Both the position numbers and the translations under genes were made by a program. Below, in pieces: positions 19,436 through 57,056 of a stretch of DNA of 64,000 bases. The notes beneath the pieces are model-generated. The model was not told where the DNA came from. It searched no databases and saw only the letters and a list, made by a program, of their open reading frames with translations. This DNA comes from Acholeplasma granularum ATCC 19168 (lineage in GTDB: Bacteria; Bacillota_I; Bacilli_A; Acholeplasmatales; Acholeplasmataceae), in contig NZ_JAFR01000007.1 in NCBI RefSeq assembly GCF_000526235.1, forward strand, positions 147,087-211,086. The letters run 5' to 3'. Positions within the stretch are counted from its first letter, which is position 1. The number at the start of each line of letters is the position of its first letter.

Positions 19436-19510
19436 ATATATTTGATTGCCTGCACTTTCGTTTATTTTCTTTTTATGTGTTAAAATATTATTAATATAAG
19501 GGGTGTTAAA

Positions 19511-42963: not shown

Positions 42964-42989
42964 AAAAAACCAGTTTAATAACTGGTTTT
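42964..42989 (-). terminator. Terminator of the thiolase operon
   Basis: Minus-strand stem AAAACCAGTT / AACTGGTTTT with a 4-base loop (42966-42989), followed by six T residues. It overlaps the stop of the last alpha/beta hydrolase. Confidence 0.88.
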
Positions 42990-43866
42990 AAATGAAGTGG
43001 AGTATATCAATAGCAAGACGTTCTGGATCATCTACAACGATTGAATGACCACAGTTTTCATATATAATTACCTCAGCCTCGGGGAATAATGAAACTGTTT
43101 CATCAAACATAATTTTTGGTACAGTTAAATCTTTATTGCCCCAGATAATTAGTGTTTTAGCTTTTAATTTGCTTATTTTATTATTACCCATACTATATAA
43201 ACTGTTTTGGTTAGTAATATTAAAGTTAGCTAAAGCCCAATCCACATCAACTAAGTTTCTTTGTTTGATTGCCTCTTGCATCCATAATAAGTTTTTATCC
43301 TTATTAGGTTTCTTACCCGTATAAATAGTTACATCATAAATGTATGCAAGCATTTGAGCATTTTTTTCTTTGTATATATTTAGTAATGGTAGTACCTGAA
43401 CAGGATCTAATGCCATTTCACTTTTTGATTTGTATATATTTGGAAAGTCAGGTTGTCCTTTTTCATTTTTTACAAATACAGGATAACCTTTGGGTGAACC
43501 TGATGAAAGTAACACTAAGCTGTTGACCATATTTGGATAATTGCTTGAAAATTCCATCGCAATATTTCCACCTAAAGACCAACCAACTATATGTACATGA
43601 TTTATTCCTAGTACATCCAAAAACATTTTTAAGTCATCAGAAAAATCTGTTAATGTTTCAATGTTATTATTGTATGTTGAATTGCCAAATCCTCTTAAGT
43701 CTGGTGCAATAACACGAAGGCCATTTGGTAATTTTTCAAATAGTGGTTCGAAAAATATTGCCGACGAGGTATTACCATGAATTAGTAATAATGTGTCTTT
43801 TGAATCGCCTTGCTCAAAGTAATGAATTGTTTCATTATTTGGAAGTAACACTTCTTTATTCTTCAT
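42988..43866 (-). CDS. Alpha/beta hydrolase, second of pair
   Basis: Serine hydrolase of 292 residues. Nucleophile elbow GWSLGG (~95-100), acid in WGNKDLTVP (~240) and base in GHSIVVDDPERL near the end; HGNTSSAIFFEPLFE is the oxyanion loop. It resembles the epoxide hydrolase/esterase or proline-iminopeptidase-like group rather than lipases. No signal peptide, so it acts in the cytoplasm. It is the last gene of the thiolase operon and is probably a paralogue of the gene before it. AAGGGG precedes the ATG. Confidence 0.82.
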   Translation of the reverse strand: MKNKEVLLPNNETIHYFEQGDSKDTLLLIHGNTSSAIFFEPLFEKLPNGLRVIAPDLRGFGNSTYNNNIETLTDFSDDLKMFLDVLGINHVHIVGWSLGGNIAMEFSSNYPNMVNSLVLLSSGSPKGYPVFVKNEKGQPDFPNIYKSKSEMALDPVQVLPLLNIYKEKNAQMLAYIYDVTIYTGKKPNKDKNLLWMQEAIKQRNLVDVDWALANFNITNQNSLYSMGNNKISKLKAKTLIIWGNKDLTVPKIMFDETVSLFPEAEVIIYENCGHSIVVDDPERLAIDILHFI

Positions 43867-43879
43867 ATAAACATCCCCT

Positions 43880-44698
43880 TTAAATTTTAAATTCTAATTC
43901 TGTCTTTAAAAATCCTATAAGTATTGTTGTAAAAATTTCTGGTACTTCATACATGGATGCATGTCCAACATTTGGCAATATAACAAGTCTAGAATTTGGT
44001 AGATTATTATTTAAGATGCGTTGATGAACAAGTGGTGTTAAATAATCATCTTCTGCACCGACTATCATTACAGGTGTTGTGATATCTTTAATATTGTTTC
44101 TTATATCATAGTTTTCTGCAGAATTAGTTAGTCTGATCATACGATCTAAAAAGTTCGTATCTTTGAAGGCACCATTTGTTAATATTTGTTTTCTATTAGC
44201 CATCCATTCAGCTTTTTTATTATTAAACTCTTTAGAATAAATAACTGGAATTGTAGCCTCATAGTAGTTAAGAGTATCTCTTGATTCTGCGTACTCATTC
44301 CATTTGTGTCCAGTAAGAGCTAGTGTTTTAGTAGTATATGCAACAGAGTTATAAATAATTAGACGATCAAGTTTATTAGGATATTTTAAAGCAAATTGCA
44401 GTGCAACTTCACCACCATAACTAATGCCGACTAAATGCACTTTATCAATATTAAGGTGATCTAGTAATGCTTTGACTAAGTCAACTTGAACAGTTTGAGT
44501 ATAATCTGTTTCATAAGAGTCACTTTGCCCTTGGTCTAAAAAATCTAAGCGAATAAGCATGAAGTTATTACTAATGGTATGCACAAATGGTTCCCAACTT
44601 TTTGTAGACATCATTATGCCATTTAAAATTAGTACTGGATTACCTTCACCTTTGATATCATAGTACACATTTTTATCTAAATATTTAAAGTAACTCAT
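43880..44698 (-). CDS. Alpha/beta hydrolase, first of pair
   Basis: Serine hydrolase of 272 residues. Nucleophile elbow GISYGG (~93-98), acid in VGAEDDYLTPL (~220) and base in VGHASMYEVPE (~250). Similar overall to 3-oxoadipate enol-lactonase, BioH and short-chain ester hydrolases. Its ATG overlaps the CoA-transferase stop by four bases, so it belongs to the acyl-CoA operon and may hydrolyse an ester or thioester intermediate, or the imported substrate itself. Confidence 0.82.
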   Translation of the reverse strand: MSYFKYLDKNVYYDIKGEGNPVLILNGIMMSTKSWEPFVHTISNNFMLIRLDFLDQGQSDSYETDYTQTVQVDLVKALLDHLNIDKVHLVGISYGGEVALQFALKYPNKLDRLIIYNSVAYTTKTLALTGHKWNEYAESRDTLNYYEATIPVIYSKEFNNKKAEWMANRKQILTNGAFKDTNFLDRMIRLTNSAENYDIRNNIKDITTPVMIVGAEDDYLTPLVHQRILNNNLPNSRLVILPNVGHASMYEVPEIFTTILIGFLKTELEFKI

Positions 44699-46011
44699 GA
44701 ATCTTGCCCTATATACATTAATTCTTTTGCTTCTTTTGTTAATTGGTCTCTAAATTTAGGATGTGCAATAGAAATAAGTAGTTTGGCTCTTTCAGCAATT
44801 GTTGTACCTCTTAAAGAAACAATACCATATTCAGTAACAACATAATCGACATCATTTCTAGATAATGATATACCTGCACCAGGTTTTAAAGTTGATACAA
44901 TTTTTGATACTTCTTCACGTTCTCCAGTTTCTGGATTTTTTACCATTGCAGTTGAATATAGTGTTATAAATGATTTACCACCTTTTGAATTCTGAGCTCC
45001 AATTGCAGTATCTGCTTGTCCACCAGTTCCTGAAAATTGAACATGTCCAATTGATTCTGATGCACATTGACCTGTTAAATCTACTTCTATTGTCGTATTA
45101 ATACTTATTTGATTATCGTTTTTACCGATAATTGCAGGATCATTACCTTCAACGCCACGCATAAAATAAATACTTGGATTATTATCTAAAAAATCATATA
45201 ATTCCTTTGAACCATAGGCAAAGGCTGTAACATGACGACCTTTAAAAAAGTTTTTCTTATTGCCAGTAACGTTGCCTGATTTAATTAAATCCATCATTCC
45301 GTTTGTGAACATTTCAGTATGGATTCCTAAATCTTTTTTATCTTTTAACGATGCAGCTACAGCATTAGGAATACCACCTATACCAAGTTGAAGTGTTGCA
45401 CCATCAGGAATTTGTTCTGCAACCAGTCTACCAATAATTAGGTCCTTTTCATTTGGTTCAGCATTTTGAATCGATGGTACAGGATAATTTGATTCAATAA
45501 TATAATTTGCTCTTGAAATATGAACTTGATTATCTCCAAATGTTCTTGGAAAATTTGGATTAACTTCAAAAATTACAATATCAGCAATCTCAATAGCATC
45601 CATTTCATAAACATTTTGCACAGATAAAGATACAAATCCATGTTTATCTGGCATAGATGTAGACATTGCAAATACGTTTGGTTTTTTATGTTGAAATCTT
45701 TTTTTACCAGCTAAATGTAAATGATTTGGAATATATGAAATATTACCGTTTTTATGAATTTTTCTTAGCGTATTCGTATAAAACCATCCACCAACGTTGA
45801 AAGATTCTTTGTATTTGGGATTCATGAAAAATTCTGCTTCTAATATTGGTAAACATGAAGAAACAGTGACGTTTTTAACATCATTAGCAACTTCATGTAA
45901 AGCATTCATAAAAGCTTGTGGTTCTGCTGCTGTCATACCAACAACAACATGATCATTTGATTTTACTAATTTAACAGCTTCATGTGCTGTAATTAATTTA
46001 TCTTTATACAT
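44695..46011 (-). CDS. Acetyl-CoA hydrolase/CoA-transferase family protein
   Basis: CoA-transferase of 438 residues, of the group that holds 4-hydroxybutyrate and butyryl-CoA:acetate CoA-transferases. The glutamyl-CoA Glu lies in IHTEMFTNGM (~230), with LQLGIGGIPNAV before and GGQADTAIGAQNSKGGKSFI and TEYGIVSLRG after, all family landmarks. The start at 46011 has AAGGAG upstream; a GTG at 46023 overlaps that site. It would swap CoA between acetate or acetyl-CoA and a short acid. Fourth gene of the operon. Confidence 0.9.
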   Translation of the reverse strand: MYKDKLITAHEAVKLVKSNDHVVVGMTAAEPQAFMNALHEVANDVKNVTVSSCLPILEAEFFMNPKYKESFNVGGWFYTNTLRKIHKNGNISYIPNHLHLAGKKRFQHKKPNVFAMSTSMPDKHGFVSLSVQNVYEMDAIEIADIVIFEVNPNFPRTFGDNQVHISRANYIIESNYPVPSIQNAEPNEKDLIIGRLVAEQIPDGATLQLGIGGIPNAVAASLKDKKDLGIHTEMFTNGMMDLIKSGNVTGNKKNFFKGRHVTAFAYGSKELYDFLDNNPSIYFMRGVEGNDPAIIGKNDNQISINTTIEVDLTGQCASESIGHVQFSGTGGQADTAIGAQNSKGGKSFITLYSTAMVKNPETGEREEVSKIVSTLKPGAGISLSRNDVDYVVTEYGIVSLRGTTIAERAKLLISIAHPKFRDQLTKEAKELMYIGQDS

Positions 46012-46031
46012 TCTTTTTAACACTCCTTAAT

Positions 46032-47066
46032 TTAGGATTTCATTGGTCCCCATTTTATAATGTTTGCTGCCCATACATAACCGATACCTGCAGCTAACAT
46101 AGCCATTACTGTACCATCTTTAACTTTACCTTGTTCTAAAGCTAAATGAAGTGACAAGATTTGGTCAATTTGACCAATATGACCATAGTCTTCTAAATAA
46201 ATTGTTTGGTCTTCCTTTAATCCTAAATCACTTAACATTGACATATGTCCACTGCGTTTAATATGTAAAATATTTAAAAAGTCTATGTCTTTTCTCTCTA
46301 AATTAGATTTTCTTAGAGATTCATCTATACATTTGTACCAATTAGGCATAGATACCTCATTGAGACGATTTTTCATTTTAACCGGATCCATTAATCTAAG
46401 TGAATGTTTAGCCTCGCTTAGATTTTCTTTTGTTATTGGATTTATTATACCACCTATTTCGACTCCAGCAGTACGTGATAATGAACCATCAGCAATCATA
46501 TGGCTACCTAAAAGTAGGTTTTTACCATAATTTTTCTTTAAAATAATTGCGCCACCACCAGCACCTAAGTTATACATCATTGACATATTCTTGTCTGTAT
46601 AGTCTACAAAATCACCATTTCTATAACCTCCAACAACCATTACAACATTAACCTCTGGGTCAGCGATTAACATATCCTTAGCCATTTTTAGAGCCGATAC
46701 GGTTGTACAACATCTATTTTGCACGTCAATACCCCATGCATTTGTAGCACCAATTCTATCTTGTACATAAAGTGCAGATGTTGTTAGTGGATATTCTTTC
46801 CATTCTTCAGATACACTTAAAATAATATCTATATCTAATGGATTCATACCTGTATTTTTTAATGCATCAAGTGCAGCTAAGGCACCCATTTCCTGAGTGC
46901 CATCACTTTCACTTGATGAAGGAATAACTTTTGATTTAATACCTAATTTATCTATGACAGCCTCTTCTGACCAAATACCTTTAGTAGCTTCAGCAATTTC
47001 TTTAGCAGTCATACGGCCTTTTGGTAAATAAATACCTGTGCCGACAATACCTACATGTTCTTTCAT
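46032..47066 (-). CDS. KAS III-like thiolase-fold enzyme with altered active site
   Basis: Thiolase-superfamily protein of 344 residues in the 3-oxoacyl-ACP synthase III/HMG-CoA synthase-like group. The N-terminal IVGTGIYLPKGRMTAKEIA and nucleophile Cys120 (VQNRCCTTVSAL) are recognisable. The second catalytic position fits LHIKRSGH, but the usual Asn of the Cys-His-Asn triad is replaced by His (EDYGHIGQID). So it is neither a normal FabH nor a mevalonate-pathway HMG-CoA synthase. It lies 27 bases after the SDR gene; condensation or cleavage of a beta-keto acid or thioester is the best guess. Confidence 0.75.
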   Translation of the reverse strand: MKEHVGIVGTGIYLPKGRMTAKEIAEATKGIWSEEAVIDKLGIKSKVIPSSSESDGTQEMGALAALDALKNTGMNPLDIDIILSVSEEWKEYPLTTSALYVQDRIGATNAWGIDVQNRCCTTVSALKMAKDMLIADPEVNVVMVVGGYRNGDFVDYTDKNMSMMYNLGAGGGAIILKKNYGKNLLLGSHMIADGSLSRTAGVEIGGIINPITKENLSEAKHSLRLMDPVKMKNRLNEVSMPNWYKCIDESLRKSNLERKDIDFLNILHIKRSGHMSMLSDLGLKEDQTIYLEDYGHIGQIDQILSLHLALEQGKVKDGTVMAMLAAGIGYVWAANIIKWGPMKS

Positions 47067-47093
47067 GTCATTCTCCTCATCTTAAATTTTTAA

Positions 47094-47816
47094 TTATAAT
47101 CTCATGCCGCCATTAACATTAATTGTTTGGCCAGTAATATATGAAGAGTCATCACTTGCTAAGAATAGTGCAACTTTTGCGATTTCTTCTGGTTGACCTA
47201 AACGATTTAACATTGTAAGTGCTGCAAATTTATCGAGTAAATCTTGTGGAACTGTTTTTAAAATATCAGTCATAATATATCCTGGAGCAATTGCATTCAC
47301 ACGTACATTTGCACCTTTAAGAGCAAATTCTTTTGCCCAAGTCATAGTTAACCCAATTACACCAGCTTTAGTTGCTGCATAGTTTGCTTGTCCAATATTA
47401 CCAAAAACACCAACTACTGATGAAATATTAATAATTGATCCTGAACCTTTAGTTTGCATTTGAGGTCCAACTAGACGTGTTAAGTTCCATACACCTTTTA
47501 AGTTGACATCAATAACAGCATCCCATTGTTGCTCAGTCATTTTTCTTGTCATAGCATCTTTAGTAATACCAGCGTTATTTACTAAAATATCAATTTGACC
47601 ATATTTGTCAATTACAGCTTGGTAAAATTTTTCAACACCTGTTACATCTGTAACGTTTAAGTACATACCTTCAACATTTGGATGTGAATATGAAAGTTCA
47701 CCTAAATCTCCAGCAATAACTTTTGCACCCGCTTCAGCATATGCTAAAGCAATTGCTTGTCCTAAACCTTTTGCACCACCTGTAATAACCGCTACTTTAC
47801 CTTCTAATTTTTTCAT
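47094..47816 (-). CDS. SDR reductase, FabG/PhaB-like
   Basis: Short-chain dehydrogenase of 240 residues. Cofactor motif TGGAKGLGQ (12-20), NNAG (~88-91), catalytic Ser in NISSVVG (~138) and YAATK (~150-154) are all present, with GRLGQPEEIA-type NRLGQPEEIA and TGQTINVNGGM at the end. It interconverts a 3-oxoacyl and a 3-hydroxyacyl group, on CoA or ACP. Next to a thiolase, a CoA-linked role such as acetoacetyl-CoA or 3-hydroxybutyrate metabolism is more likely than fatty acid synthesis. AGGAG precedes the ATG. Confidence 0.9.
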   Translation of the reverse strand: MKKLEGKVAVITGGAKGLGQAIALAYAEAGAKVIAGDLGELSYSHPNVEGMYLNVTDVTGVEKFYQAVIDKYGQIDILVNNAGITKDAMTRKMTEQQWDAVIDVNLKGVWNLTRLVGPQMQTKGSGSIINISSVVGVFGNIGQANYAATKAGVIGLTMTWAKEFALKGANVRVNAIAPGYIMTDILKTVPQDLLDKFAALTMLNRLGQPEEIAKVALFLASDDSSYITGQTINVNGGMRL

Positions 47817-47828
47817 TTTAGACTCCTC

Positions 47829-49037
47829 TTAGATTTTTTTTAAGATGACAGATGTACCCATACCGCCACCAATACATAGACTAGCTAGACCAACTTTATG
47901 ATCTTTATTTCTTAATAAGTTATGAATTAATGTAACCATAATTCTATTTCCTGATGCTCCAACTGGATGACCCAATGCAATTGCACCACCATTTGGATTA
48001 GTCTTGTCTAATATCATGCTTTCTTTAATGTTTAATTCTTGTGACAATTCACGAACAACACCTAAAGCCTGTGCTGCGAACGCTTCATTTAATTCAAAAG
48101 TATCAATATCTGTTATTTTTAAATTAGCAATTTTAAGTGAATTAATAATAGCTTGGACAGGTCCTAAGCCCATTACACTTGGTTCTACACCAGCTTGTCC
48201 AACTCCAATAATCTCAACTAGTGGTTTAAGATTGTGTTTTTTTACCATTTCTTCGCTTGCTAATACCATAAAACTTGCACCATCATTAATTCCTGATGAA
48301 CTTGCTGCTGTAACAGTACCATCTTTTTTAAATGCTGGACGTAATGCAGCAATCTTTTCTCTTGTAGTTGTATAGTTAATGTATTCATCTTTATCAAATA
48401 CAATATCAGCTTTTCTAGTTTTAATTGTAACTGGAATAATTTCTTCAACAAAAAGACCTGCTTCTTGAGCTGCTTTTGCTTTAACTTGTGAGTGATATGC
48501 AAAATCATCTTGCATTTCTCTAGTAAACCCATGTTTATCAACAATGTTTTCAGCAGTAATACCCATATGATAACCTTCAAAAGCATCTGTTAGACCTTCA
48601 GTTACCATGTAGTCAATTAGTGATAGGTCCCCCATTTTAACACCATTACGTACCGTACCAGGTACCAAATAAGGAGCCTGAGACATTGATTCAACACCAC
48701 CAGCTACAACCATATTTGCTAATCCTGCTTTAATCGAAGCAAAACCTGTAATTACAGATTTCATTCCAGATCCACAAATCATGTTTACACCATAAGCTGG
48801 TACGTCTGGTGCAATTCCTGCTTTAATAGAAATTTGTCTAGGTAACCCTTGTTTTTGTCCTGCAGGAAGAACATTACCGATAATAACTTCATCAATCCAT
48901 TCTGATTTGATGTTATTTACTTCTAGAGTTTGTTTTAAAACTTGTGAACCAAAATCAGCTGGAGAAATTTGAGCCAGAGTTCCTAAGTAAGAACCAATCG
49001 CACTTCTTTTCGCTGCAACTACATATACTTTACTCAT
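47829..49037 (-). CDS. Acetyl-CoA acetyltransferase (thiolase)
   Basis: Thiolase of 402 residues. Nucleophile Cys88 in MICGSGMKS, base His357 in ALGHPVGASG and Cys388 in SLCIGGGMG are intact, as are RSAIGSYLG and VAGGVESMS. It cleaves acetoacetyl-CoA (or longer 3-ketoacyl-CoA) with CoA, or makes acetoacetyl-CoA. It is the first gene of a six-gene operon. Its promoter is TTGACA-17-TAAAAT (49094-49122), with a TetR-type palindrome just after the -10 box and a cre-like site just upstream. Confidence 0.95.
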   Translation of the reverse strand: MSKVYVVAAKRSAIGSYLGTLAQISPADFGSQVLKQTLEVNNIKSEWIDEVIIGNVLPAGQKQGLPRQISIKAGIAPDVPAYGVNMICGSGMKSVITGFASIKAGLANMVVAGGVESMSQAPYLVPGTVRNGVKMGDLSLIDYMVTEGLTDAFEGYHMGITAENIVDKHGFTREMQDDFAYHSQVKAKAAQEAGLFVEEIIPVTIKTRKADIVFDKDEYINYTTTREKIAALRPAFKKDGTVTAASSSGINDGASFMVLASEEMVKKHNLKPLVEIIGVGQAGVEPSVMGLGPVQAIINSLKIANLKITDIDTFELNEAFAAQALGVVRELSQELNIKESMILDKTNPNGGAIALGHPVGASGNRIMVTLIHNLLRNKDHKVGLASLCIGGGMGTSVILKKI

Positions 49038-49074
49038 AGTTTTACCTCTTTTTCTTTTAATGAATTATATAATA

Positions 49075-49088
49075 TGAATATTTGTTCA
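49075..49088. promoter_or_regulatory. FadR-like palindrome at the thiolase promoter
   Basis: TGAATATTTGTTCA; ATGAA and TTCAT arms pair over a 6-base centre. It lies just downstream of the -10 box, where a bound repressor would block initiation. One of four related sites in the region. Confidence 0.65.
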
Positions 49089-49093
49089 TATTT

Positions 49094-49122
49094 ATTTTAT
49101 CATCATTTCAGATCATTGTCAA
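49094..49122 (-). promoter_or_regulatory. Promoter of the thiolase operon
   Basis: Minus strand TTGACA (49117-49122) and TAAAAT (49094-49099), 17 bp apart. Confidence 0.75.
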
Positions 49123-49129
49123 TATAAAA

Positions 49130-49143
49130 TGAAAACGCTTTAC
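49130..49143. promoter_or_regulatory. cre-like site upstream of the thiolase promoter
   Basis: TGAAAACGCTTTAC has the cre core but one extra base before the final C compared with the consensus. It lies 8 bases upstream of the -35 box. Confidence 0.4.
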
Positions 49144-49172
49144 AAGTTTTATTATACTTTTATATTTTTTGA

Positions 49173-49212
49173 TTAAAAAAGCGTTGATTTTTAACTCTAA
49201 TCAACGCTTTTT
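49173..49212 (-). terminator. Terminator of the receptor lipoprotein gene
   Basis: Minus-strand arms AAAAAGCGTTGATT / AATCAACGCTTTTT (49176-49212) with a 9-base loop, followed by a T-run. It lies 15 bases past the receptor stop. Confidence 0.9.
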
Positions 49213-49226
49213 ATCACCGTGTTATA

Positions 49227-50594
49227 TTATTTTTTTAATACGTCGCTGATTGATTCAACTTCACGTACTTTTGCAAAAGTTACTTGTGGTGAATAAACAA
49301 ATTTAGTAAATGCTAATGAGTCTAATCCAAAGCGGTTTCCATCAGCCCAGTTAACTGTACCAGCTAAAGGTAATTTGATTGGAGCAGATTCTGCAAGTTC
49401 AATGAATGATTCCCATGTTAATGTATCAAAATCTTCTACTCTTTCAAGTAATGCAACAAAAGTTTTAGCTGCAACATAACCAGCCATTGCATATGGGTTA
49501 GCCCATAATGATTTAGCTTTTGTAGTACCACTTTCACGTGTAGAATCGTTTAATAATTTAACAAATTCCCAATATTCAGCTGTAAATCCTGGTAGATATG
49601 ATAATGGTAATGCAAATCCATCAAGAGTACCGTCTCCACCAACTTGTGCTTCTGTTGGAGCTGGAGCTGTTACATCAACGATGTCAACCCAAGCATTAGC
49701 ATATACATTATATGGAAGTGGTTGAGCAACATCATCTACTTTAGCTTGTGCTGGAGTAAATACTGTAGCAGCATTTACATAAGAAGTAATAACTGGTACT
49801 GTAGAGTTTTGTTCTCTTAAAGCTGTTGCAGCTGCAGTTGCAGGCGCTTGGTTAGATGATAAGATGATTACATCTGGATTTTGTGCTAAACCAGTAGTAA
49901 CTGTTGCAGCAGCATTTAAAGCAGCAAAAGGTAATTTAACTACTCTATTTGCAGCAACACCTTGTGCAGCAAGTTCTTCATCGATACCTACTTTAATAGA
50001 CTGTCCTGCATCATCATCAGAATATAAAACTAAAATTTTACTATCTGCACCAAGTTTTTGATCTCCATTTGGTCCAAATAAACTTTCATGTAATGCACGA
50101 GCAACTAACATTCTACCTTCAGTTCTATAAATAGGTTGAACTGATAAGATGTTTGATCCAACACCACTTGAACCGTTATAATAAAGTGAGTTAACACCTG
50201 TAACACCATAAACCATTGGAATTCCAGATTCTAATAAATAGTCCATAGTTGCATTAACTGTATTTGTACCAAAGTGTCCCACTAATGCAAATACTTTATC
50301 TTCTTCAACAAGTGTTTTAGTATGAGCAAGTCCTTGTTCACCATCAAAATTGTCATTATAGTGAATAAATTCAATATCTCTACCATCGTTTGATGCATTA
50401 TATTCATCAAACACAACTTGCATAGCTAAGTTAAATGGTACACCTACCCCTGCGAATGCACCTTCTGTAGCCGCAGTATTACCGATTATAATTTTATCAG
50501 CTGTAATACCTTGAGCTGTATTTTTGGTTGTATCACAACCAAGTAATACGACTGCACTTAGTGCAACCATCATTACTAATAATAGTTTTTTCAT
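49227..50594 (-). CDS. ABC transporter substrate-binding lipoprotein (LivK/Peripla_BP_6 type)
   Basis: Lipoprotein of 455 residues. The signal peptide ends in the lipobox VLLGC, so Cys20 would be lipidated and the protein anchored outside. The mature part is a type I periplasmic-binding fold of the branched-chain amino acid/urea/aromatic family: IIIGNTAATEGAFAGVG, then FALVGHFGTNTV and ILVLYSDDDAGQS. It probably feeds the LivHMGF permease upstream. It has its own promoter within the gap after livF, and its terminator separates it from thiolase. Ligand unknown. Confidence 0.9.
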   Translation of the reverse strand: MKKLLLVMMVALSAVVLLGCDTTKNTAQGITADKIIIGNTAATEGAFAGVGVPFNLAMQVVFDEYNASNDGRDIEFIHYNDNFDGEQGLAHTKTLVEEDKVFALVGHFGTNTVNATMDYLLESGIPMVYGVTGVNSLYYNGSSGVGSNILSVQPIYRTEGRMLVARALHESLFGPNGDQKLGADSKILVLYSDDDAGQSIKVGIDEELAAQGVAANRVVKLPFAALNAAATVTTGLAQNPDVIILSSNQAPATAAATALREQNSTVPVITSYVNAATVFTPAQAKVDDVAQPLPYNVYANAWVDIVDVTAPAPTEAQVGGDGTLDGFALPLSYLPGFTAEYWEFVKLLNDSTRESGTTKAKSLWANPYAMAGYVAAKTFVALLERVEDFDTLTWESFIELAESAPIKLPLAGTVNWADGNRFGLDSLAFTKFVYSPQVTFAKVREVESISDVLKK

Positions 50595-50610
50595 TTTTTC
50601 TCCTTTTTTT

Positions 50611-50626
50611 ACGCAAAATATTGCGT
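50611..50626 (-). other. 5' leader stem-loop of the receptor mRNA
   Basis: ACGCAA-N4-TTGCGT forms a perfect 6-bp stem directly before the AAGGAG ribosome binding site of the lipoprotein gene. In the transcript it is followed by A residues, not T, so it is not a terminator. A role in mRNA stability is possible. Confidence 0.4.
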
Positions 50627-50644
50627 TTTTCTTTCTTTATTTAT

Positions 50645-50672
50645 ATTATAACATGAAAACGCTTACTGTGAA
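50645..50672 (-). promoter_or_regulatory. Promoter of the receptor lipoprotein gene
   Basis: Minus strand TTCACA (50667-50672) and a perfect TATAAT (50645-50650), 16 bp apart. A cre-like site fills the spacer and a FadR-like palindrome covers the -35 box. Confidence 0.65.
50654..50667. promoter_or_regulatory. cre-like site inside the receptor promoter
   Basis: TGAAAACGCTTACT; on the minus strand AGTAAGCGTTTTCA matches the cre consensus except at its first base. It lies between the -35 and -10 boxes, a classical repression position. Confidence 0.6.
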
Positions 50673-50682
50673 CCTTTATTCA
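50669..50682. promoter_or_regulatory. FadR-like palindrome at the receptor promoter
   Basis: TGAACCTTTATTCA, one base off a perfect TGAAT-N4-ATTCA arm pair. It overlaps the -35 box of the lipoprotein promoter. Confidence 0.55.
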
Positions 50683-50701
50683 TATTTTTCTTGAAAGAAA
50701 A

Positions 50702-51454
50702 TTAATTGTTACTTCCAAGATAAGTACTAATAAGTGATTCATCATTTAAAATGTCTTTTGCCTTACCATGAGATTTAACTTTTCCAACCTCTAATAAATA
50801 AACATAGTCAGCAATTTTAAGTGTTTGCTTAGCATTTTGTTCAACGATGAGTATTGTTCTACCATCTTCTTTAATCTTTTTAATTATATTAAATATATCT
50901 TTAATAATAAGTGGTGCAAGCCCTAGTGATGGTTCATCAAGTAATAAGAACTCTGGAGAACCCATAAGTGCACGTCCAATGGCTAACATTTGTTGCTCTC
51001 CACCTGAAAGTGTAGATGCTTGTTGTTTGCGACGTTCTTTTAGGATTGGAAAGTATGAGTATACTTCTTCTAAATTATTTTGTAGAAGAAACTTTCTTTT
51101 CTTCTTAATACCATCTTCTTTAACAGATTTAATTGAGTAAGCTCCAACCATCAAATTTTCTTCAACTGTTAGACCATTTAAAATCATACGACCTTCAGGT
51201 GATTGCATAATACCTTTTTTTACTATCTCATATGATGGTAAGTTTTGTATTTCTACCCCGTTGTAAATAATTTTTCCTGATTTAACCTTTGTTAATCCAG
51301 AAATAGACCTAATTGTAGATGTTTTACCAGCACCATTTGCTCCTAGTAGTGCAACAATTGAACCTTTAGGTACAACCATACTTACACCTTTAACAGCTTT
51401 AACAATGCCATAATCAATTTCTAAATCCTTGATTTCTAGTAGTATATTATTCAT
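50702..51454 (-). CDS. livF: ABC transporter ATPase, LivF-type
   Basis: Nucleotide-binding subunit of about 250 residues. Walker A GANGAGKTST (~35-44), Q-loop QSPEGRMIL, signature LSGGEQQML and Walker B LLLDEPSLGLAP with switch His in IVEQNAK (Gln-Asn variant usual for LivF). GGAG lies 6 bases before the second ATG (51454), chosen over the first (51457). It overlaps the end of livG. Powers, with LivG, the import of the receptor's ligand. Confidence 0.93.
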   Translation of the reverse strand: MNNILLEIKDLEIDYGIVKAVKGVSMVVPKGSIVALLGANGAGKTSTIRSISGLTKVKSGKIIYNGVEIQNLPSYEIVKKGIMQSPEGRMILNGLTVEENLMVGAYSIKSVKEDGIKKKRKFLLQNNLEEVYSYFPILKERRKQQASTLSGGEQQMLAIGRALMGSPEFLLLDEPSLGLAPLIIKDIFNIIKKIKEDGRTILIVEQNAKQTLKIADYVYLLEVGKVKSHGKAKDILNDESLISTYLGSNN

Positions 51455-52955
51455 CATCTTCTTCTCCTAAATAAGCTACTCTCACATCATGGTTCAATTG
51501 TATTTCACGTGGCACATCAAGTGCAAGTTTTTTACCAAATGAGATCGCACATACACGTTCGCAAATACTCATAACTAATCCCATATCATGCTCTACAAGG
51601 AAAATTGTAACTTTATATTTTTCATTAATTTCTTTAATGACATTGGCCAGATCGATTGTTTCATGATCATTAAGCCCAGCTGCAGGCTCATCAAGAATAA
51701 TTAAACTTGGATCAGTCATTAAAGTTCTTGCAAGTTCCACTTTTTTTAGTACACCATATGGTAGACCATAAGGTGATCTAAACGCGTATTCTTCAATTTT
51801 TAAGTCCTTTAGTATTTTATAACCCTTAGTTCTTAGTACCATTTCTTCACGTTTTGTTCGATTAGAGTTGACCATATGTTCTAAGTAATCAGTTAATAAC
51901 AATGAGTGACCGGCAACTAATAAGTTATCTAATACAGTTAATTCCCAAATAAGTTCAACGTTTTGAAATGATCTTGCAATACCTTCATGAATAATATCAT
52001 GTGTTTGAAGTTTATTTAAATCAACAATATCATTTTCCTTATTTCTAAAATAAATACTTCCGCCAGTAGATTTATAAAACTGAGTTATACAGTTAAATAC
52101 AGTTGTTTTACCTGCACCATTTGGTCCAATCAAACCAAATATTTCACCTTTTCTAACTTCAAAACTCAAATCATTTACAGCCTTGATACCACCAAAATAC
52201 ATTTTAAGACCACGCACTGATAATTGAATGTTCCCATCACTATAAATTGCTATTTTATTTTCTAAAGATTCTTTTTTATGTGTTAATTCTATTTTTTGTT
52301 TTTCACTTAAGTTTTTTTGAACTAATTGATTATCTATTTCAACAAGCAACTGTTTTTCTTCTTTTAGGGTAGTTAAATTTCTTTCATTAATTTTATCGTT
52401 TAATTCTTTTATTAATAATTCGAACTTTTCTTGTTTTTTATTTATTTTATCGATCAAATTAATTGTCTTAATATTTAACTTTTCAAATTTTACATTCATT
52501 TTTTCAATACGAGCTTTTCTTAAGTTCGTTTGTTTTTCTATAATTTTACTGAATTTTGATTTTTCATCTTCAGTATATGTTAGATTTGAATATTTTATTC
52601 CTAATAATCTTGAATACTCATTTCTATCTTCTAATGCTTTACCATCATAAACACTTAATAAAGAATCTAGATTTTCCATAGATTTGTTTTTGTTTTTAAA
52701 TCTTCGGCGTTTCCAATATGCTTTTTTGTCATATTGTTCTAATTTCTTAGTAATTATTTCACTGTTATGATGAATACCTTCTAATCTCTTATTGGCAACA
52801 TTTGTATCCTCAGTAAAATATCTATCAATTTCTATTAGTTTTTTACTCTTATATTCTTCTAGTTTTTTCTTGTATTCATACTCAAGACCAATTAAATAAT
52901 TTAATTTTAGTTGAGTGCGGCGTCTTTTAACAGTATCCTTATTCATCATTGCCAT
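51447..52955 (-). CDS. livG: ABC transporter ATPase, LivG-type, with long N-terminal coiled-coil extension
   Basis: Nucleotide-binding subunit of 502 residues, about twice the normal ~255. The last ~255 residues are a complete LivG: Walker [14 protein letters not shown]-loop SFQNVEL, signature region [13 protein letters not shown] (with Y-G-V in place of the usual LSGGQ), Walker [13 protein letters not shown] and VEHDMG. The first ~245 residues are Lys/Glu-rich, predicted coiled coil (for example [16 protein letters not shown]), with no membrane segment. AAGGTG precedes the ATG inside the end of livM. The extension is discussed as a finding. Confidence 0.88.
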
Positions 52956-53976
52956 AATATGACACCTTCACTTTCTTAATTAACTTTTTAATACCTTTTT
53001 TGATATCACTAAATAGTTGTACCAACCCACCAGGATAAAACATTACTACAACAATAATTAAGACACCATTTAAAATAATGGAATAGGTTCCCAGATTAAA
53101 TCTTTGGAATACCGCTAGATCTAATCCAAATATAACAAACGTTCCTAAAATAATACCCCAAATTGATTTTGTACCCCCAATAATTACCGCTGCAAGTATA
53201 TTTAAAGCAAATGTTAATCCAACAGAGTTAACGTTTGCATTTCTTAAATAAAGCATACTTAATACACCTGCTAGTGTTCCATATATACCTGAAATAACAA
53301 ATGAAAATAAACGATATTTTAATAATTTAATACCCATAGTTTGTGCGGCTGTATCACTATTTTTAATAGATAATAGCGCACGACCAGTTGGAGATTTAAT
53401 TAAGTTATAAATGACTATCATACCAATCACTAAGAAAATAGCAGTAAATATGATTGCATCGTTTGCCAATAAACGATATCCAAAAATTTCTAAAGGCTTT
53501 GGATTTTCACCACTTAAAAAGCCACCTGTTGTTCCTGATGCATAATTAGGAATATTGCGAATAACTTCTACTACAATTTGTGATAAACCCATTGTAACAA
53601 TTGCTAGATACATTCCTGAAATTCTTAAACTGACAAATCCAAAGAGTATGGACACAAAAATAGAAATAATTATTACAACAACAATTGCAATTAGCAATGG
53701 TTGATCTAAATATCTATAAACATAGTGTAAACCAAATGAACCTATCCCAACAAAAGCTCCTGTTCCTAAAGATGCCAACCCACCATATCCTAGTAAAAGT
53801 GCAAATCCTAAACCAGCAAGTGCATAATATGAAGTCATTACTATTGCAGAATGTAGGCTTGGTGTAAATAGGCTAGATGCTAAACTAAATATCACCAAAA
53901 CAATTCCCACCATAACAAAAGCAAATTGAGGTTTTTTAATAATTGGCATTATTTTCTCATTAAGTAATCTTTTCAT
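52939..53976 (-). CDS. livM: ABC transporter permease, LivM-type
   Basis: Integral membrane protein of 345 residues with about ten helices. The BPD_transp_2 signature GFVSLRISGMYLAIVTMGLSQ lies near 115 and ALLSIKNSDTAAQTMGI, matching the EAA-like coupling loop (RA..SN...A...GI), near 200. GPTGRALLS-type residues precede it. It pairs with LivH to form the channel. AAGG precedes the ATG, two bases after livH. Confidence 0.93.
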   Translation of the reverse strand: MKRLLNEKIMPIIKKPQFAFVMVGIVLVIFSLASSLFTPSLHSAIVMTSYYALAGLGFALLLGYGGLASLGTGAFVGIGSFGLHYVYRYLDQPLLIAIVVVIIISIFVSILFGFVSLRISGMYLAIVTMGLSQIVVEVIRNIPNYASGTTGGFLSGENPKPLEIFGYRLLANDAIIFTAIFLVIGMIVIYNLIKSPTGRALLSIKNSDTAAQTMGIKLLKYRLFSFVISGIYGTLAGVLSMLYLRNANVNSVGLTFALNILAAVIIGGTKSIWGIILGTFVIFGLDLAVFQRFNLGTYSIILNGVLIIVVVMFYPGGLVQLFSDIKKGIKKLIKKVKVSYYGNDE

Positions 53977-53977
53977 G

Positions 53978-54919
53978 TCAAACCTTCTTCATAGTTTTTT
54001 TACCAAATATACCATTTGGTTTAAGTAATACAATTAGCATGATTGCTAGATAGATAATTACATTACCCCACTGTGCCAATCCATATTTGACTAAGATCAT
54101 CGGGATTCCAACTTGGCCAAAGTTTAATAAGAATGCTCCAATTAACGGACCATAGAATGTTGAAAAACCTCCTAAGATTGAAGCATAAAATGCATCAATT
54201 TGCATAGGTGTCATTGCTGCTATTGTAAGTGAGGATATCGCAGCTGTATAAGTTATCGCTGATAATGCACCTAATGCACCAGCAATACCCCAACTTAAAG
54301 CATTAATTCTATTTGTATTTACACCCATTAATCCGGCAACACGCTCATTAGATGCAACACTTCTAACAGCGAGTCCCCACTTAGTATATTTAAGCGTTAA
54401 GAATAACCCAATAATAATAACAGATGAAATCGCTAAAGTAATTAAACGGTGAGCGGGTATAAATATTCCTGAATTGAAAAGTTCAACTGTACTTTCAGTA
54501 AACTTAAAACTTGCTCTTGTTGTTGTAGGTCCAAAAACAAGTGGAATTACTCCCGTTAAGACTATTACTAGTCCCATAGTAATGATTTGTTTTGTAGCAG
54601 CATTAGTATATTTAGCATTTCTAAATATAACAACATCAATTAAGTACCCTGCAATAAAAGATACGAGCATACCTCCTAAAATAGGTAGTATTAGAGTTAA
54701 TGGATTATTAATTGAAACACTAGGTAGTCCAGTTAAATCACTTACACCTTGTTGATCAATTAAATAACTTGTTGTATAAGCACCTAAAATACCCAACATA
54801 CCTTGAGCAAAATTTGTTGTTGTACTTGTCTTAAAAATTAAAACAATCCCAAAAGTCGCTAAAGACAAGAATGAGAAAGTTATAAGCGCATTTGTAATCA
54901 TATTCAAAATCGGTATCAT
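53978..54919 (-). CDS. livH: ABC transporter permease, LivH-type
   Basis: Integral membrane protein of 313 residues. The signature FAQGMLGILGAYTTSYLI lies near 40 and KWGLAVRSVASNERVAGLMG, the LivH coupling helix, near 205; AITYTAAISSLT and GGFSTFYGPLIGAFLL follow. The start at 54919 has AAAGGA 5 bases upstream and is preferred to an in-frame ATG at 54976 which lies in promoter sequence. First gene of livH-livM-livG-livF, under the FadR-like palindrome at 55002. Confidence 0.93.
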   Translation of the reverse strand: MIPILNMITNALITFSFLSLATFGIVLIFKTSTTTNFAQGMLGILGAYTTSYLIDQQGVSDLTGLPSVSINNPLTLILPILGGMLVSFIAGYLIDVVIFRNAKYTNAATKQIITMGLVIVLTGVIPLVFGPTTTRASFKFTESTVELFNSGIFIPAHRLITLAISSVIIIGLFLTLKYTKWGLAVRSVASNERVAGLMGVNTNRINALSWGIAGALGALSAITYTAAISSLTIAAMTPMQIDAFYASILGGFSTFYGPLIGAFLLNFGQVGIPMILVKYGLAQWGNVIIYLAIMLIVLLKPNGIFGKKTMKKV

Positions 54920-55001
54920 TTCTATCCTTTCACATGTTAACCTTATATTTGCATCTACTACTTGCGATGTTAACATTAACGTTAAAAAAACTATTGTAAC
55001 A

Positions 55002-55015
55002 TGAATATTTATTCA
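55002..55015. promoter_or_regulatory. FadR-like palindrome at the livH promoter
   Basis: TGAATATTTATTCA, perfect TGAAT/ATTCA arms with a 4-base centre. It lies just upstream of TACAAT (minus strand, 54993-54998), the best -10 box for livH; the -35 box is weak. It is also within reach of the divergent tetR gene. Confidence 0.7.
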
Positions 55016-55068
55016 GTTACATCTTAACATGTTTTAATTTATAAAGTCAATACTTTAATCAAAAAATA

Positions 55069-55082
55069 TGTAATCGTTTACA
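55069..55082. promoter_or_regulatory. cre/LacI-type operator between livH and tetR
   Basis: TGTAATCGTTTACA matches TGNAANCGNTNNCA at every fixed position. It lies 80 bases before tetR and 54 bases upstream of the livH palindrome, in the divergent regulatory gap. Confidence 0.65.
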
Positions 55083-55161
55083 TTACAAATTATAACTGTG
55101 CACTTTATTACTTGTAATTTAAAGTATATTCATATAAAATGGTTATCAGGAGAATACAATC

Positions 55162-55782
55162 ATGAAAATTAACTCAATTCGCTTACCAAAAACAGCTACT
55201 GGATATAAATCATTCCATAGAATAATTGATGTATCAAGAAAACTTTTTGCAGAAAAAGGATTTTTGGCAACATCTACTAATCAAATTATTTCTGAGGCAA
55301 AAGTTGCTATCGGTACTTTTTATATTTACTTTGATGATAAACGTGCAGTTTATGACTATTTATTAAACGATTACTCTAAAAGAATTCGTAAAGAAATTCA
55401 AACAAAGGTTAAAGATCTTCCAACACGCTATGAAAAGGAACGTGAAGGTTTACGCGCTTTTATTAATTTCTCGCTTCAAGACCGATTAAGTTATAGAATT
55501 ATTTGGGAATCAATGTTTGTAGATAGAACACTTTTTATAGAATATTATTCTAACTTTGCTGAAGTCTACTCAAAACAACTTCAAATTGCAGTCGAATCTG
55601 GTGAAGTGGATAAAAATATCGATTTAGAAACTTTATCTTTCGCACTTATGGGTATATCAAATTTTGTTGGGCTACAAGTTGTTTTTAAAGAAAAAATCAC
55701 AGATGAAGAAATTGATCTAATTATTAATAATGTGATGTATTTCTTACAAAACGGTATGTTCAATATGCCTCTTAAAAAATAA
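55162..55782 (+). CDS. TetR-family regulator (FadR-like)
   Basis: Regulator of 206 residues. The helix-turn-helix covers ~25-60: FAEKGFLATSTNQIISEAKV then GTFYIYFDDKRAVYDYLL, a standard TetR DNA-binding domain. The C-terminal ligand domain is helical and not family-specific. AGGAG lies 9 bases before the ATG. It is divergent from livH. Since the TGAAT-N4-ATTCA palindromes resemble the operator of Bacillus subtilis FadR, a TetR protein that responds to acyl-CoA, this gene is the natural candidate to bind all four sites, with an acyl-CoA-type inducer (inference). Confidence 0.88.
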   Translation: MKINSIRLPKTATGYKSFHRIIDVSRKLFAEKGFLATSTNQIISEAKVAIGTFYIYFDDKRAVYDYLLNDYSKRIRKEIQTKVKDLPTRYEKEREGLRAFINFSLQDRLSYRIIWESMFVDRTLFIEYYSNFAEVYSKQLQIAVESGEVDKNIDLETLSFALMGISNFVGLQVVFKEKITDEEIDLIINNVMYFLQNGMFNMPLKK

Positions 55783-55814
55783 AAACTGAAAGTTCATACT
55801 TTCAGTTTTATTTT
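55782..55814. terminator. Bidirectional terminator between tetR and ackA
   Basis: Arms AAAACTGAAAG / CTTTCAGTTTT (11 bp) with a 6-base loop, flanked by A-run and T-run. It lies between the two converging genes. Confidence 0.9.
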
Positions 55815-55817
55815 GTC

Positions 55818-57002
55818 TTAATTACTATTTTGAAGACGTAAGACATCACGTGCAATCATTACTTCTTCGTTTGTAGGTATAACCCAGATTTTAACTTTAG
55901 AATCTTTATGTTGTATTTCTTTATCGCCTCTTGAGTTATTCTTTTCATCATCAATAATGATTCCTAAAACCTCAAGACGTTTACATACTAAGCTACGTAC
56001 TTCTTTAGCATTTTCACCAATACCTGCGGTGAATACTAAAGCATCAAGTCCACCTAATAATACATAATATGATGCAATATAGTCAACAATACGTTTCGCT
56101 TGAATATCAAGTGCTAATTTAGCTCTATGATTTCCTTCGTTTGCTGCCGATACTATATCTCTAGAGTCATGTGATACACCAGAAATACCTAAATAACCAC
56201 TCTTTTTATTGAGTTCATTTAATGTTTTTTCTAAAGAATATCCTTCTTTTTGTTGCATTAATTGGAAAATTGATGGATCAACATTACCGCTTCTAGTTCC
56301 CATTGGGAAACCTTCAAGTGGTGTAAGTCCCATAGATGTATCAATACTCTTTCCATTTAATACTGCTGTAACAGATGCTCCATTACCAATATGTGCAACA
56401 ATAATTTTTGATTCTTCTTTACCTAATCGTTTTTGTGCTTCCTCAGATACATATTGGTGTGATGTACCATGGAATCCATATTTTCTAACACCATGTTTTT
56501 CATACCATTCATAAGGTGTACCATATAAAAAGTTAACTTCTGGCATTGTTTGGTGGAAAGTTGTATCAAATACAGCAACATGTAGTACATTTGGTATTGC
56601 TTTTCTAAATGCGTTAATACCAATGATATTTGCCGGATTATGTAATGGTGCTAAGTCATTTAAAGCTGCAATCTTTAAAACAACATCATCGTCAATTACA
56701 ACAGACTCTTTAAATGTTTCACCACCTTGAACTACTCGGTGTCCAACCCCTTGAATTTCATCTAGTGATGAAATAATCTTATGTTCTAATAAACCTTTAA
56801 TAACTAAATCAACTGCAACAGAGTGATCTAAAACAACTAAATCAGATTGTTTGCTTGAACTACCATTAAAATTTATTTTGAACTCTGCATTTTTATTTCC
56901 AATTCTTTCAACTAATCCTGAAGCTATTTCGAATTCTTCAGGCATTTGTAATAATTGGAATTTTAAACTGGAACTACCTGCATTTACTGATAAAATTTTC
57001 AT
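55818..57002 (-). CDS. ackA: Acetate kinase
   Basis: Converts acetyl-phosphate plus ADP to acetate plus ATP, 394 residues. VNAGSSSLKF at the N-terminus, GHRVVQGG, AVFDTTFHQTMP (catalytic Asp region), AHIGNGASVTAV and FTAGIGENA are all typical ASKHA motifs. The start at 57002 has AGGAAGG 8 bases upstream. Its promoter TTGAAT-17-TAAAAT carries the FadR-like palindrome, tying it to the neighbouring acyl-CoA genes. No phosphotransacetylase is in the window. Confidence 0.96.
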   Translation of the reverse strand: MKILSVNAGSSSLKFQLLQMPEEFEIASGLVERIGNKNAEFKINFNGSSSKQSDLVVLDHSVAVDLVIKGLLEHKIISSLDEIQGVGHRVVQGGETFKESVVIDDDVVLKIAALNDLAPLHNPANIIGINAFRKAIPNVLHVAVFDTTFHQTMPEVNFLYGTPYEWYEKHGVRKYGFHGTSHQYVSEEAQKRLGKEESKIIVAHIGNGASVTAVLNGKSIDTSMGLTPLEGFPMGTRSGNVDPSIFQLMQQKEGYSLEKTLNELNKKSGYLGISGVSHDSRDIVSAANEGNHRAKLALDIQAKRIVDYIASYYVLLGGLDALVFTAGIGENAKEVRSLVCKRLEVLGIIIDDEKNNSRGDKEIQHKDSKVKIWVIPTNEEVMIARDVLRLQNSN

Positions 57003-57027
57003 AATCATTACCTTCCTATCTATAAAG

Positions 57028-57056
57028 ATTTTAACTTAACATGAATGATTATTCAA
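57028..57056 (-). promoter_or_regulatory. Promoter of ackA
   Basis: Minus strand TTGAAT (57051-57056) and TAAAAT (57028-57033), 17 bp apart; the operator palindrome overlaps the -35 box and the spacer. Confidence 0.65.
57042..57055. promoter_or_regulatory. FadR-like palindrome at the ackA promoter
   Basis: TGAATGATTATTCA, perfect TGAAT/ATTCA arms with a 4-base centre; on the minus strand it reads TGAATAATCATTCA, close to half of the Bacillus FadR site TGAATGANTANTCATTCA. Confidence 0.68.

Follow-up and report, generated by a model that had tools for sequence, protein, structure and literature searches.

The 64,000-nucleotide stretch of Acholeplasma granularum ATCC 19168 that was analysed here (the window; positions 147087-211086 of contig NZ_JAFR01000007.1 in a 1.45-Mb genome) carries genes for acyl-coenzyme A (CoA) enzymes, a Liv-type ATP-binding cassette (ABC) importer, and acetate kinase, together with the gene of a TetR-family regulator. 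Judging by four palindromes at their promoters and by the conservation of these sites in relatives, it is very probable that one TetR regulon acts on these predicted operators. On the minus strand, livH-livM-livG-livF are followed by sbp and then by thl-sdr-kas3-coaT-abhB-abhA, and tetR is divergent from livH and convergent with ackA. Family profile searches agree with the gene calls of an earlier reading of the bare sequence (the first-pass annotation), including tetR at 55162, although its gene list had omitted the beta-ketoacyl synthase (KAS) III-like gene at 46032-47066. The features of the locus are:

42988..43866, minus strand: abhA, alpha/beta hydrolase of the intracellular short-chain polyhydroxyalkanoate (PHA) depolymerase family (NCBIfam NF050089, 327 bits, cut-off 300; GWSLGG box)
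43880..44698, minus strand: abhB, second alpha/beta hydrolase (PF00561, 88.6 bits; no NCBIfam cut-off reached)
44695..46023, minus strand: coaT, acyl-CoA:acetate CoA-transferase-like (PF13336, 196 bits; nearest solved proteins 4-hydroxybutyrate CoA-transferases)
46032..47066, minus strand: kas3, KAS III-like protein (NCBIfam NF005308, 487 bits, cut-off 315)
47094..47816, minus strand: sdr, FabG/PhaB-type reductase, predicted (R)-3-hydroxyacyl-CoA dehydrogenase (PF13561, 199 bits)
47829..49037, minus strand: thl, acetyl-CoA C-acyltransferase (thiolase) (TIGR01930, 440 bits, cut-off 241)
49227..50594, minus strand: sbp, Liv-type substrate-binding lipoprotein (PF13458, 95.7 bits)
50702..51457, minus strand: livF, ATPase (PF00005, 99 bits)
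51447..52955, minus strand: livG, ATPase (PF00005 at residues 260-425 of 502)
52939..53976, minus strand: livM, permease (PF02653, 124 bits)
53978..54976, minus strand: livH, permease (PF02653, 100 bits)
55162..55782, plus strand: tetR, regulator (PF00440, 50 bits; nearest solved relative Sulfolobus FadR)
55782..55809, unstranded: terminator-like two-way hairpin between tetR and ackA, from the sequence
55818..57008, minus strand: ackA, acetate kinase (TIGR00016, 517 bits, cut-off 293)

An inverted repeat with T-runs at about 49180-49215, between sbp and thl, suggests that these two are on separate transcripts. LivG has about 250 extra N-terminal residues ahead of its ABC domain, and livG frames of 485-526 residues are found in three relatives.

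All four palindromes that the first-pass annotation had placed at 49075, 50669, 55002, and 57042 are present, and they overlap or abut promoter-like boxes as it had described. The operators and boxes are listed here with the scores of the matrix introduced in the following paragraph:

49075..49088, unstranded: operator 1, just downstream of the thl -10 box (TGAATATTTGTTCA; one change from TGAAT-N4-ATTCA; score 23.6, rank 1)
49094..49122, minus strand: thl promoter-like boxes TTGACA-17-TAAAAT, from the sequence
50669..50682, unstranded: operator 2, overlapping the sbp -35 box (TGAACCTTTATTCA; one change from TGAAT-N4-ATTCA; score 21.9, rank 2)
50645..50672, minus strand: sbp promoter-like boxes TTCACA-16-TATAAT, from the sequence
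55002..55015, unstranded: operator 3, in the livH-tetR region, just downstream of the livH -10 box (TGAATATTTATTCA; exact TGAAT-N4-ATTCA; score 19.4, rank 4)
55021..55050, minus strand: livH promoter-like boxes TTGACT-18-TAAGAT, from the sequence
57042..57055, unstranded: operator 4, overlapping the ackA -35 box (TGAATGATTATTCA; exact TGAAT-N4-ATTCA; score 20.4, rank 3)
57028..57056, minus strand: ackA promoter-like boxes TTGAAT-17-TAAAAT, from the sequence

The operators of sbp and ackA thus cover -35 boxes and those of thl and livH lie 5-6 bases downstream of the -10 box in the likely start region, which fits repression. The region is no richer in promoter-like matches as such than its shuffled versions (42 versus 49). 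Because the plain pattern also occurs at chance level, the four sites were tested from outside, with a matrix made from the sites of relatives. With one mismatch allowed, the pattern has 12 matches in the window versus 10.5 expected, and TGAAY-N4-RTTCA is found 11 times genome-wide versus 17 times for the reversed control pattern. Bare pattern counts were therefore dropped as evidence. An 8-kb stretch contains four of the eleven genome copies (post hoc Poisson P about 5e-7), and two copies lie inside reading frames (scores 6.6 and 4.3). The first-pass annotation had made its proposal depend on the palindrome not being common throughout the genome, and eleven copies in 1.45 Mb, four of them here, do not contradict it. 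The matrix contains 88 distinct 30-bp sites upstream of thl and tetR from the named loci L082-L160 (consensus TTGTAATATGAATAATTATTCATATTACAA); the A. oculi locus L081 was excluded, and no remaining locus has a TetR more than 60% identical to that of the window. With this matrix the four sites take ranks 1-4 in the window and the next score is 7.6, and with a matrix from distant loci only (35 loci, TetR less than 52% identical) the same four are on top with 21.6-19.0, followed by 11.1. The best single score in 60 Markov control windows (3.8 Mb in all) is 21.2, and the Markov model predicts scores of at least 16 to occur 2.6 times and of at least 12 about 18 times per genome. Thus, four such sites within 8 kb are far from chance, while a lone site of about 20 is no proof.

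Relatives were collected by a Kas3-guided search of genome contigs, and the best 80 of the 176 loci were compared, many of which are cut by contig ends. According to the record titles, these best 80 belong to Acholeplasmataceae, Izemoplasmatales, Erysipelotrichaceae, Haloplasmataceae, and Clostridia. Kas3, itself the query that found them, is in each of the 80 loci, livH in 78, sdr in 73, livM in 71, livG in 69, livF in 64, thl in 62, tetR in 61, sbp in 60, abhB and coaT in 56 each, abhA in 54, and ackA in 3. In the 350 bp ahead of thl, 55 of the 58 testable loci have TGAA-N6-TTCA, and 45 of 61 have it ahead of tetR; one site can count for both genes where these are divergent. Eleven control palindromes composed of the same letters are found at no more than 3 loci (thl) and 2 loci (tetR). 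In a second set of 19 loci around TetR matches in the family, partly from the same genomes as the 80, every thl has the palindrome upstream and all 41 sites scoring at least 15 are upstream of cassette genes. The same is true for all 16 sites with scores of at least 15 in L035-L039, the five own-genus loci, whose sites are outside the training set. The matrix ranking and the conserved promoters together support the proposal, already made in the first-pass annotation, of one TetR regulon uniting importer, acyl-CoA enzymes, and ackA.

Acetate kinase is a target mainly within the window's own genus, with two more linked loci outside of it. Its site is kept in G007 (18.9) and G004 (19.3), both genomes of the own genus, and weakened in G006 (13.4, one core mismatch); in G005 it is not assessable because of a contig end, and the 20-kb locus of G003 yielded no ackA. 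Locus L150 has ackA and thl side by side in divergent orientation, with a site of 22.1 in the region that separates them; in L152, thl and sdr flank ackA, which is preceded by sites of 19.0 and 18.9. At E<=1e-49 the regulator itself has matches in 43 of the family's 88 genomes and in no member of the small-genome genus g11 (29 genomes). The first-pass statement that such an energy route would be unusual for a mollicute therefore needs a limit. In G004 (L036:4403-9903), the Liv importer and receptor are 37-69% identical and thl, sdr, and kas3 87-95%. The transporter thus seems to have been exchanged while the operators stayed.

The regulon is predicted to reach maoC-fabK outside the window. These genes are located about 111 kb before it on the same contig behind a site scoring 20.1 (C7:35370), and maoC sites are also present in G004, G005, and G007 (19.6, 19.6, and 25.1, respectively). 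There are 45 MaoC matches in 40 of the 88 genomes, 30 of which were fetched. The 16 best (at least 42% identity, orthologous) all have an upstream site of at least 15.7, whereas no site above 11 precedes any of the 14 weaker paralogues that were fetched. Several of the 16 maoC regions are shared with tetR sites of the training set, but the four Acholeplasma ones are not. MaoC, acyl-CoA dehydrogenase, EtfB, and EtfA are encoded near the cassette in 13, 10, 11, and 11 of 79 loci, respectively, and in some relatives acyl-CoA dehydrogenase and EtfBA stand beside MaoC in place of FabK. An acetate transporter (SatP/AceTr; NF038013, 257 bits, above the equivalog cut-off of 50) is probably a further target, given the site upstream of its gene (C7:115806), which scores 21.5 in G004. 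Two other sites of the own genome are found on contig C8, one between an Ohr-like gene and a pyrophosphatase gene (L180:4478) and one before glyA (L180:7094). On contig C13 (L182:3616-4577), a site of 14.3 is separated from pdhAB by two small genes, of which the first has an antitoxin-like start; the site is about 1.1 kb before pdhA. The pyruvate dehydrogenase operon was rejected as a conserved target because this site lacks an equivalent in G004, where the surroundings of 16 of 17 sites were fetched. In G004 (L164:3000), a site of 22.3 is located between a gene for HMG-CoA (3-hydroxy-3-methylglutaryl-CoA) synthase and recG-plsX; this site is not among the own genome's eleven palindromes.

In outline the first-pass interpretation stands, but its targets were incomplete and its type of FadR was wrong. 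Bacillus FadR cannot be kept as the model by the tests made here, because the window TetR reaches 35 bits with NCBIfam NF053878 (cut-off 200), and the Bacillus 18-bp operator, as written there (TGAATGANTANTCATTCA), has two window matches with three mismatches, none at the four sites. The nearest solved relative is Sulfolobus FadR, which leads the sequence search (6el2, E 1.2e-28; next solved chain 4.9e-15) and fills ranks 1-7 of a fold search with the AlphaFold model (predicted local distance difference test score, pLDDT, 88.6), with 6en8 at a template modelling score (TM) of 0.81 and 30% identity; B. subtilis FadR is at TM 0.75 and 20% identity. In Sulfolobus numbering, 68 distinct TetRs have Gly48, Tyr51, and Arg86 in all 68, Tyr53 in 67, Arg73 in 65, and Asn37 in 59. 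According to the part of the Sulfolobus FadR study that was available (PMC6449355), changing Tyr47, Tyr51, or Tyr53 to Ala weakens DNA binding, Gly48 to Ala abolishes it, and the acyl-CoA response depends on Arg73, Arg86, and Met101. It is therefore likely that acyl-CoA is the signal of the window TetR as well. In its pocket, Phe68, Phe111, and Phe126 of Sulfolobus FadR are Tyr, Ile, and Tyr, and the ligand is perhaps shorter or more polar than in Sulfolobus.

Concerning the enzymes, the closest solved chain of AbhA is a poly(3-hydroxybutyrate) depolymerase (8ynv, E 1e-69), and seven of eight relatives' copies tested pass NF050089, while the eighth, from L124, matched no family at 1e-40. In Mycoplasmatota strain zrk7, two genes of the cassette (L114:9078-9965 and 18956-19840) belong to the PHA-depolymerase family, both scoring above the NF050089 cut-off. 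A class III PHA synthase has no match in the 88 family genomes at 1e-15, a search with a weak control (Caulobacter only, below the cut-off) and limited to this class. Own granules are thus not expected, mobilisation of an own polymer was rejected, and imported oligomers would be the likelier substrate of AbhA. The off-window MaoC is nearest to solved (R)-specific enoyl-CoA hydratases of the PhaJ type (5cpg, E 3e-30; 1iq6, E 3e-26), and Sdr passes, among the family matches listed, the cut-off of subfamily NF009466 alone (235 bits, cut-off 222). An S-specific beta-oxidation was rejected, because the own genome has no match to crotonase (PF00378) or acyl-CoA dehydrogenase (PF00441), which among eight genus genomes only G004 has, and its eight matches to PF02737 are weak and partial (28 bits at best; none of the six above the cut-off spans more than 83 of 180 positions) and are taken as general NAD-binding folds. 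The classical phosphotransacetylase Pta (PF01515) was discarded for lack of a match in the own genome; a PduL-type enzyme is present there. The structure model of Sbp (pLDDT 87.3) has a type I binding-protein fold, and its fold search returns fatty-acid, hydroxybenzoate, and leucine binders alike (11-18% identity). Kas3 is at least 80% conserved in most relatives compared, and no solved relatives of its profile were found at 1e-30. Compared with the Cys-His-Asn triad of FabH (aligned to 2ebd), Cys119 and His268 are in place and Asn is replaced by His296, all three being invariant in eight sequences, so that its chemistry may differ from that of FabH.

Taken together, these assignments narrow the unknown short acid or ester of the first-pass annotation to a leading candidate, (R)-3-hydroxybutyrate or its short oligomers, through the family of AbhA, 8ynv, and the PhaJ-like MaoC. 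TetR would occupy the TGAA-N6-TTCA operators of all four promoters (thl, sbp, livH, and ackA) and be released once acyl-CoA accumulates, switching the pathway on. The Liv-type importer would take up (R)-3-hydroxybutyrate or its oligomers, AbhA and AbhB would cleave ester bonds, and CoaT would transfer CoA from acetyl-CoA. Sdr would then oxidise (R)-3-hydroxybutyryl-CoA to acetoacetyl-CoA, thiolase would produce two acetyl-CoA, and the PduL-type phosphotransacetylase together with AckA would yield ATP and acetate, with MaoC, as R-specific hydratase, and FabK serving as electron sink to dispose of NADH. Such uptake and disproportionation would explain the importer, the hydrolases, the transferase, Sdr, thiolase, AckA, the acetate transporter, and MaoC-FabK. 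That a C4 (R)-3-hydroxyacyl substrate is degraded seems to us about evenly balanced, while the whole explanation, a FadR-like TetR switching a fermentation of (R)-3-hydroxybutyrate or its oligomers to acetyl-CoA, acetate, and ATP, falls slightly short of that.

A number of observations weigh against this explanation. Several family assignments fall short: CoaT reaches 341 bits with the butyryl-CoA:acetate CoA-transferase family TIGR03948 (equivalog cut-off 675), FabK reaches 431 bits where NCBIfam needs 453, and MaoC reaches no NCBIfam cut-off. Kas3 has no step in the proposed C4 pathway. The satP site scores only 12.7 in the own genome, a level at which, as given above, about 18 sites are expected, and the sites between the Ohr-like gene and pyrophosphatase (23.2) and before glyA (17.7) do not fit the pathway. 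In the regulator, Tyr47, Leu49, and Phe52 of the DNA-contact set of Sulfolobus FadR are replaced, and Lys77, Arg132, and Met101 of the CoA-binding set are Gln, Val, and Ser and mostly replaced elsewhere, too; moreover, acetyl-CoA fails to release Sulfolobus FadR (PMC6449355). Peloplasma aerotolerans, whose locus L094 holds the cassette and is not one of those counted above for MaoC, dehydrogenase, or Etf, does not grow on crotonate or propionate and produces acetate, ethanol, and CO2, 3-hydroxybutyrate not being mentioned in the accessible part of its description (PMC11122141). In addition, G003 and G006 carry TetR without any MaoC match.

The same regulon might work in reverse, an R-specific reverse beta-oxidation building butyrate or longer acids from acetyl-CoA and burning NADH in sugar fermentation, with the importer supplying primer acids. 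Thiolase, Sdr, MaoC, FabK or acyl-CoA dehydrogenase/EtfBA, and CoA-transferase do form a full cycle, FabK normally works as a reductase, and a complete and expressed reverse beta-oxidation pathway is reported for the Acholeplasmataceae bin JAAYAE01 in what could be consulted of PMC11334527, which favours the opposite direction. However, an importer, two hydrolases, and a PHA-depolymerase-family enzyme are out of place in synthesis, a FadR-like repressor released by acyl-CoA fits substrate uptake, the cassette persists without MaoC in G003 and G006, and the products named for Peloplasma are acetate, ethanol, and CO2, the stem "butyr" being absent from the text seen of PMC11122141. We therefore consider the reverse direction unlikely. 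Catabolism of another acid, namely a branched, aromatic, or longer-chain 3-hydroxy or keto acid with Kas3 providing an extra carbon-carbon bond step, would give Kas3 the place that it lacks in a pure C4 route. A wide range of acids is bound by receptors of the Liv type, the fold search of Sbp is mixed, and between relatives the enzymes are less variable than receptor and importer. The cassette, however, contains no ring-cleaving or acyl-CoA-ligase gene, and AbhA and MaoC both indicate short (R)-3-hydroxyacyl groups, so that this reading, too, is rather improbable.

It is considerably harder to see Kas3, Sdr (FabG), MaoC, and FabK as a set for fatty acid synthesis or for making primers. Kas3, Sdr, and FabK are akin to enzymes of fatty acid synthesis, and G004 has its 22.3 site before recG-plsX, but the co-regulation with importer, CoA-transferase, thiolase, and acetate kinase, the acyl-CoA dehydrogenase/EtfBA of relatives instead of FabK, and the lack of the plsX site among the own genome's eleven make a role in lipid synthesis quite improbable. 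A real palindrome bound by a regulator other than the window TetR could be considered because tetR has no operator in the own genome except the one shared with livH. Nevertheless, 45 of 61 loci have the palindrome ahead of tetR, and in several orders it goes together with the tetR-thl pair, which leaves very little room for another regulator. Finally, chance palindromes in AT-rich promoters would agree with the bare pattern counts, but they are contradicted by the out-of-sample matrix ranking, the conservation, and the control palindromes, and their probability is practically negligible.

For the proposed fermentation of (R)-3-hydroxybutyrate, the case is thus strong for sites and targets, the acyl-CoA signal is likely, and substrate and direction are plausible. 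A broader proposal, which we make tentatively and think possible rather than probable, is that a module for the fermentation of polyhydroxybutyrate (PHB) oligomers, so far undescribed, is common to the wall-less acholeplasmas and several further lineages of Bacillota. It would comprise an R-stereospecific C4 route (import, depolymerisation, CoA transfer, Sdr, thiolase, and a PhaJ-like hydratase with either FabK or acyl-CoA dehydrogenase/Etf) and a new Cys-His-His condensing-enzyme homologue, and it would be switched by a bacterial branch of the archaeal FadR acyl-CoA repressor. A literature search, made on listings apart from PMC11334527 and with most subscription journals outside its reach, returned no description of the cassette or its regulator. 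Operator, regulator, and targets together constitute a testable regulon in a mollicute, and the highly conserved Kas3 is assigned to a defined cassette, which offers a setting for testing its function. If true, a PHB-derived organic-acid energy route, unexpected for the group, would be added to the mollicutes.

Compared with known systems, the reverse beta-oxidation of JAAYAE01 shares the bacterial family and an overlapping enzyme set with the window regulon, but regulator, operator, and an R-specific route do not appear in the accessible part of that account (PMC11334527). In sum, the pathway is predicted to turn 3-hydroxybutyrate into acetate and butyrate, as in the known model Ilyobacter polytropus, which ferments 3-hydroxybutyrate to these products and is reported, in the section seen of PMC3035301, not to use the polymer; Ilyobacter is a fusobacterium, and the likeness is by outcome and not by gene comparison. 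AbhA is like an intracellular short-chain PHA depolymerase (NF050089, 8YNV) in scoring above the family cut-off; as a difference, no class III PHA synthase match accompanies it in the 88 family genomes. B. subtilis FadR (3WHB/3WHC) acts by an acyl-CoA logic that the window TetR would share along with the TetR fold (TM 0.75), but the latter is only 20% identical, scores below the FadR cut-off, and does not have the 18-bp operator at its four sites. The closest likeness is to Sulfolobus acidocaldarius FadR (Saci_1107; 6EL2, 6EN8), whose authors saw no ancestry shared with bacterial FadR proteins, as stated in the portion consulted of PMC6449355; the window TetR now ties a bacterial regulator to this archaeal one. 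The homology is full-length, both are local regulators among thiolase and esterase genes with dyad operators, and the DNA-binding residues Gly48, Tyr51, and Tyr53 as well as the CoA-phosphate arginines 73 and 86 are kept. In contrast to Sulfolobus FadR, the window TetR is bacterial, differs in several contacts and pocket residues, and has predicted targets that include an importer, acetate kinase, and sites elsewhere in the genome.

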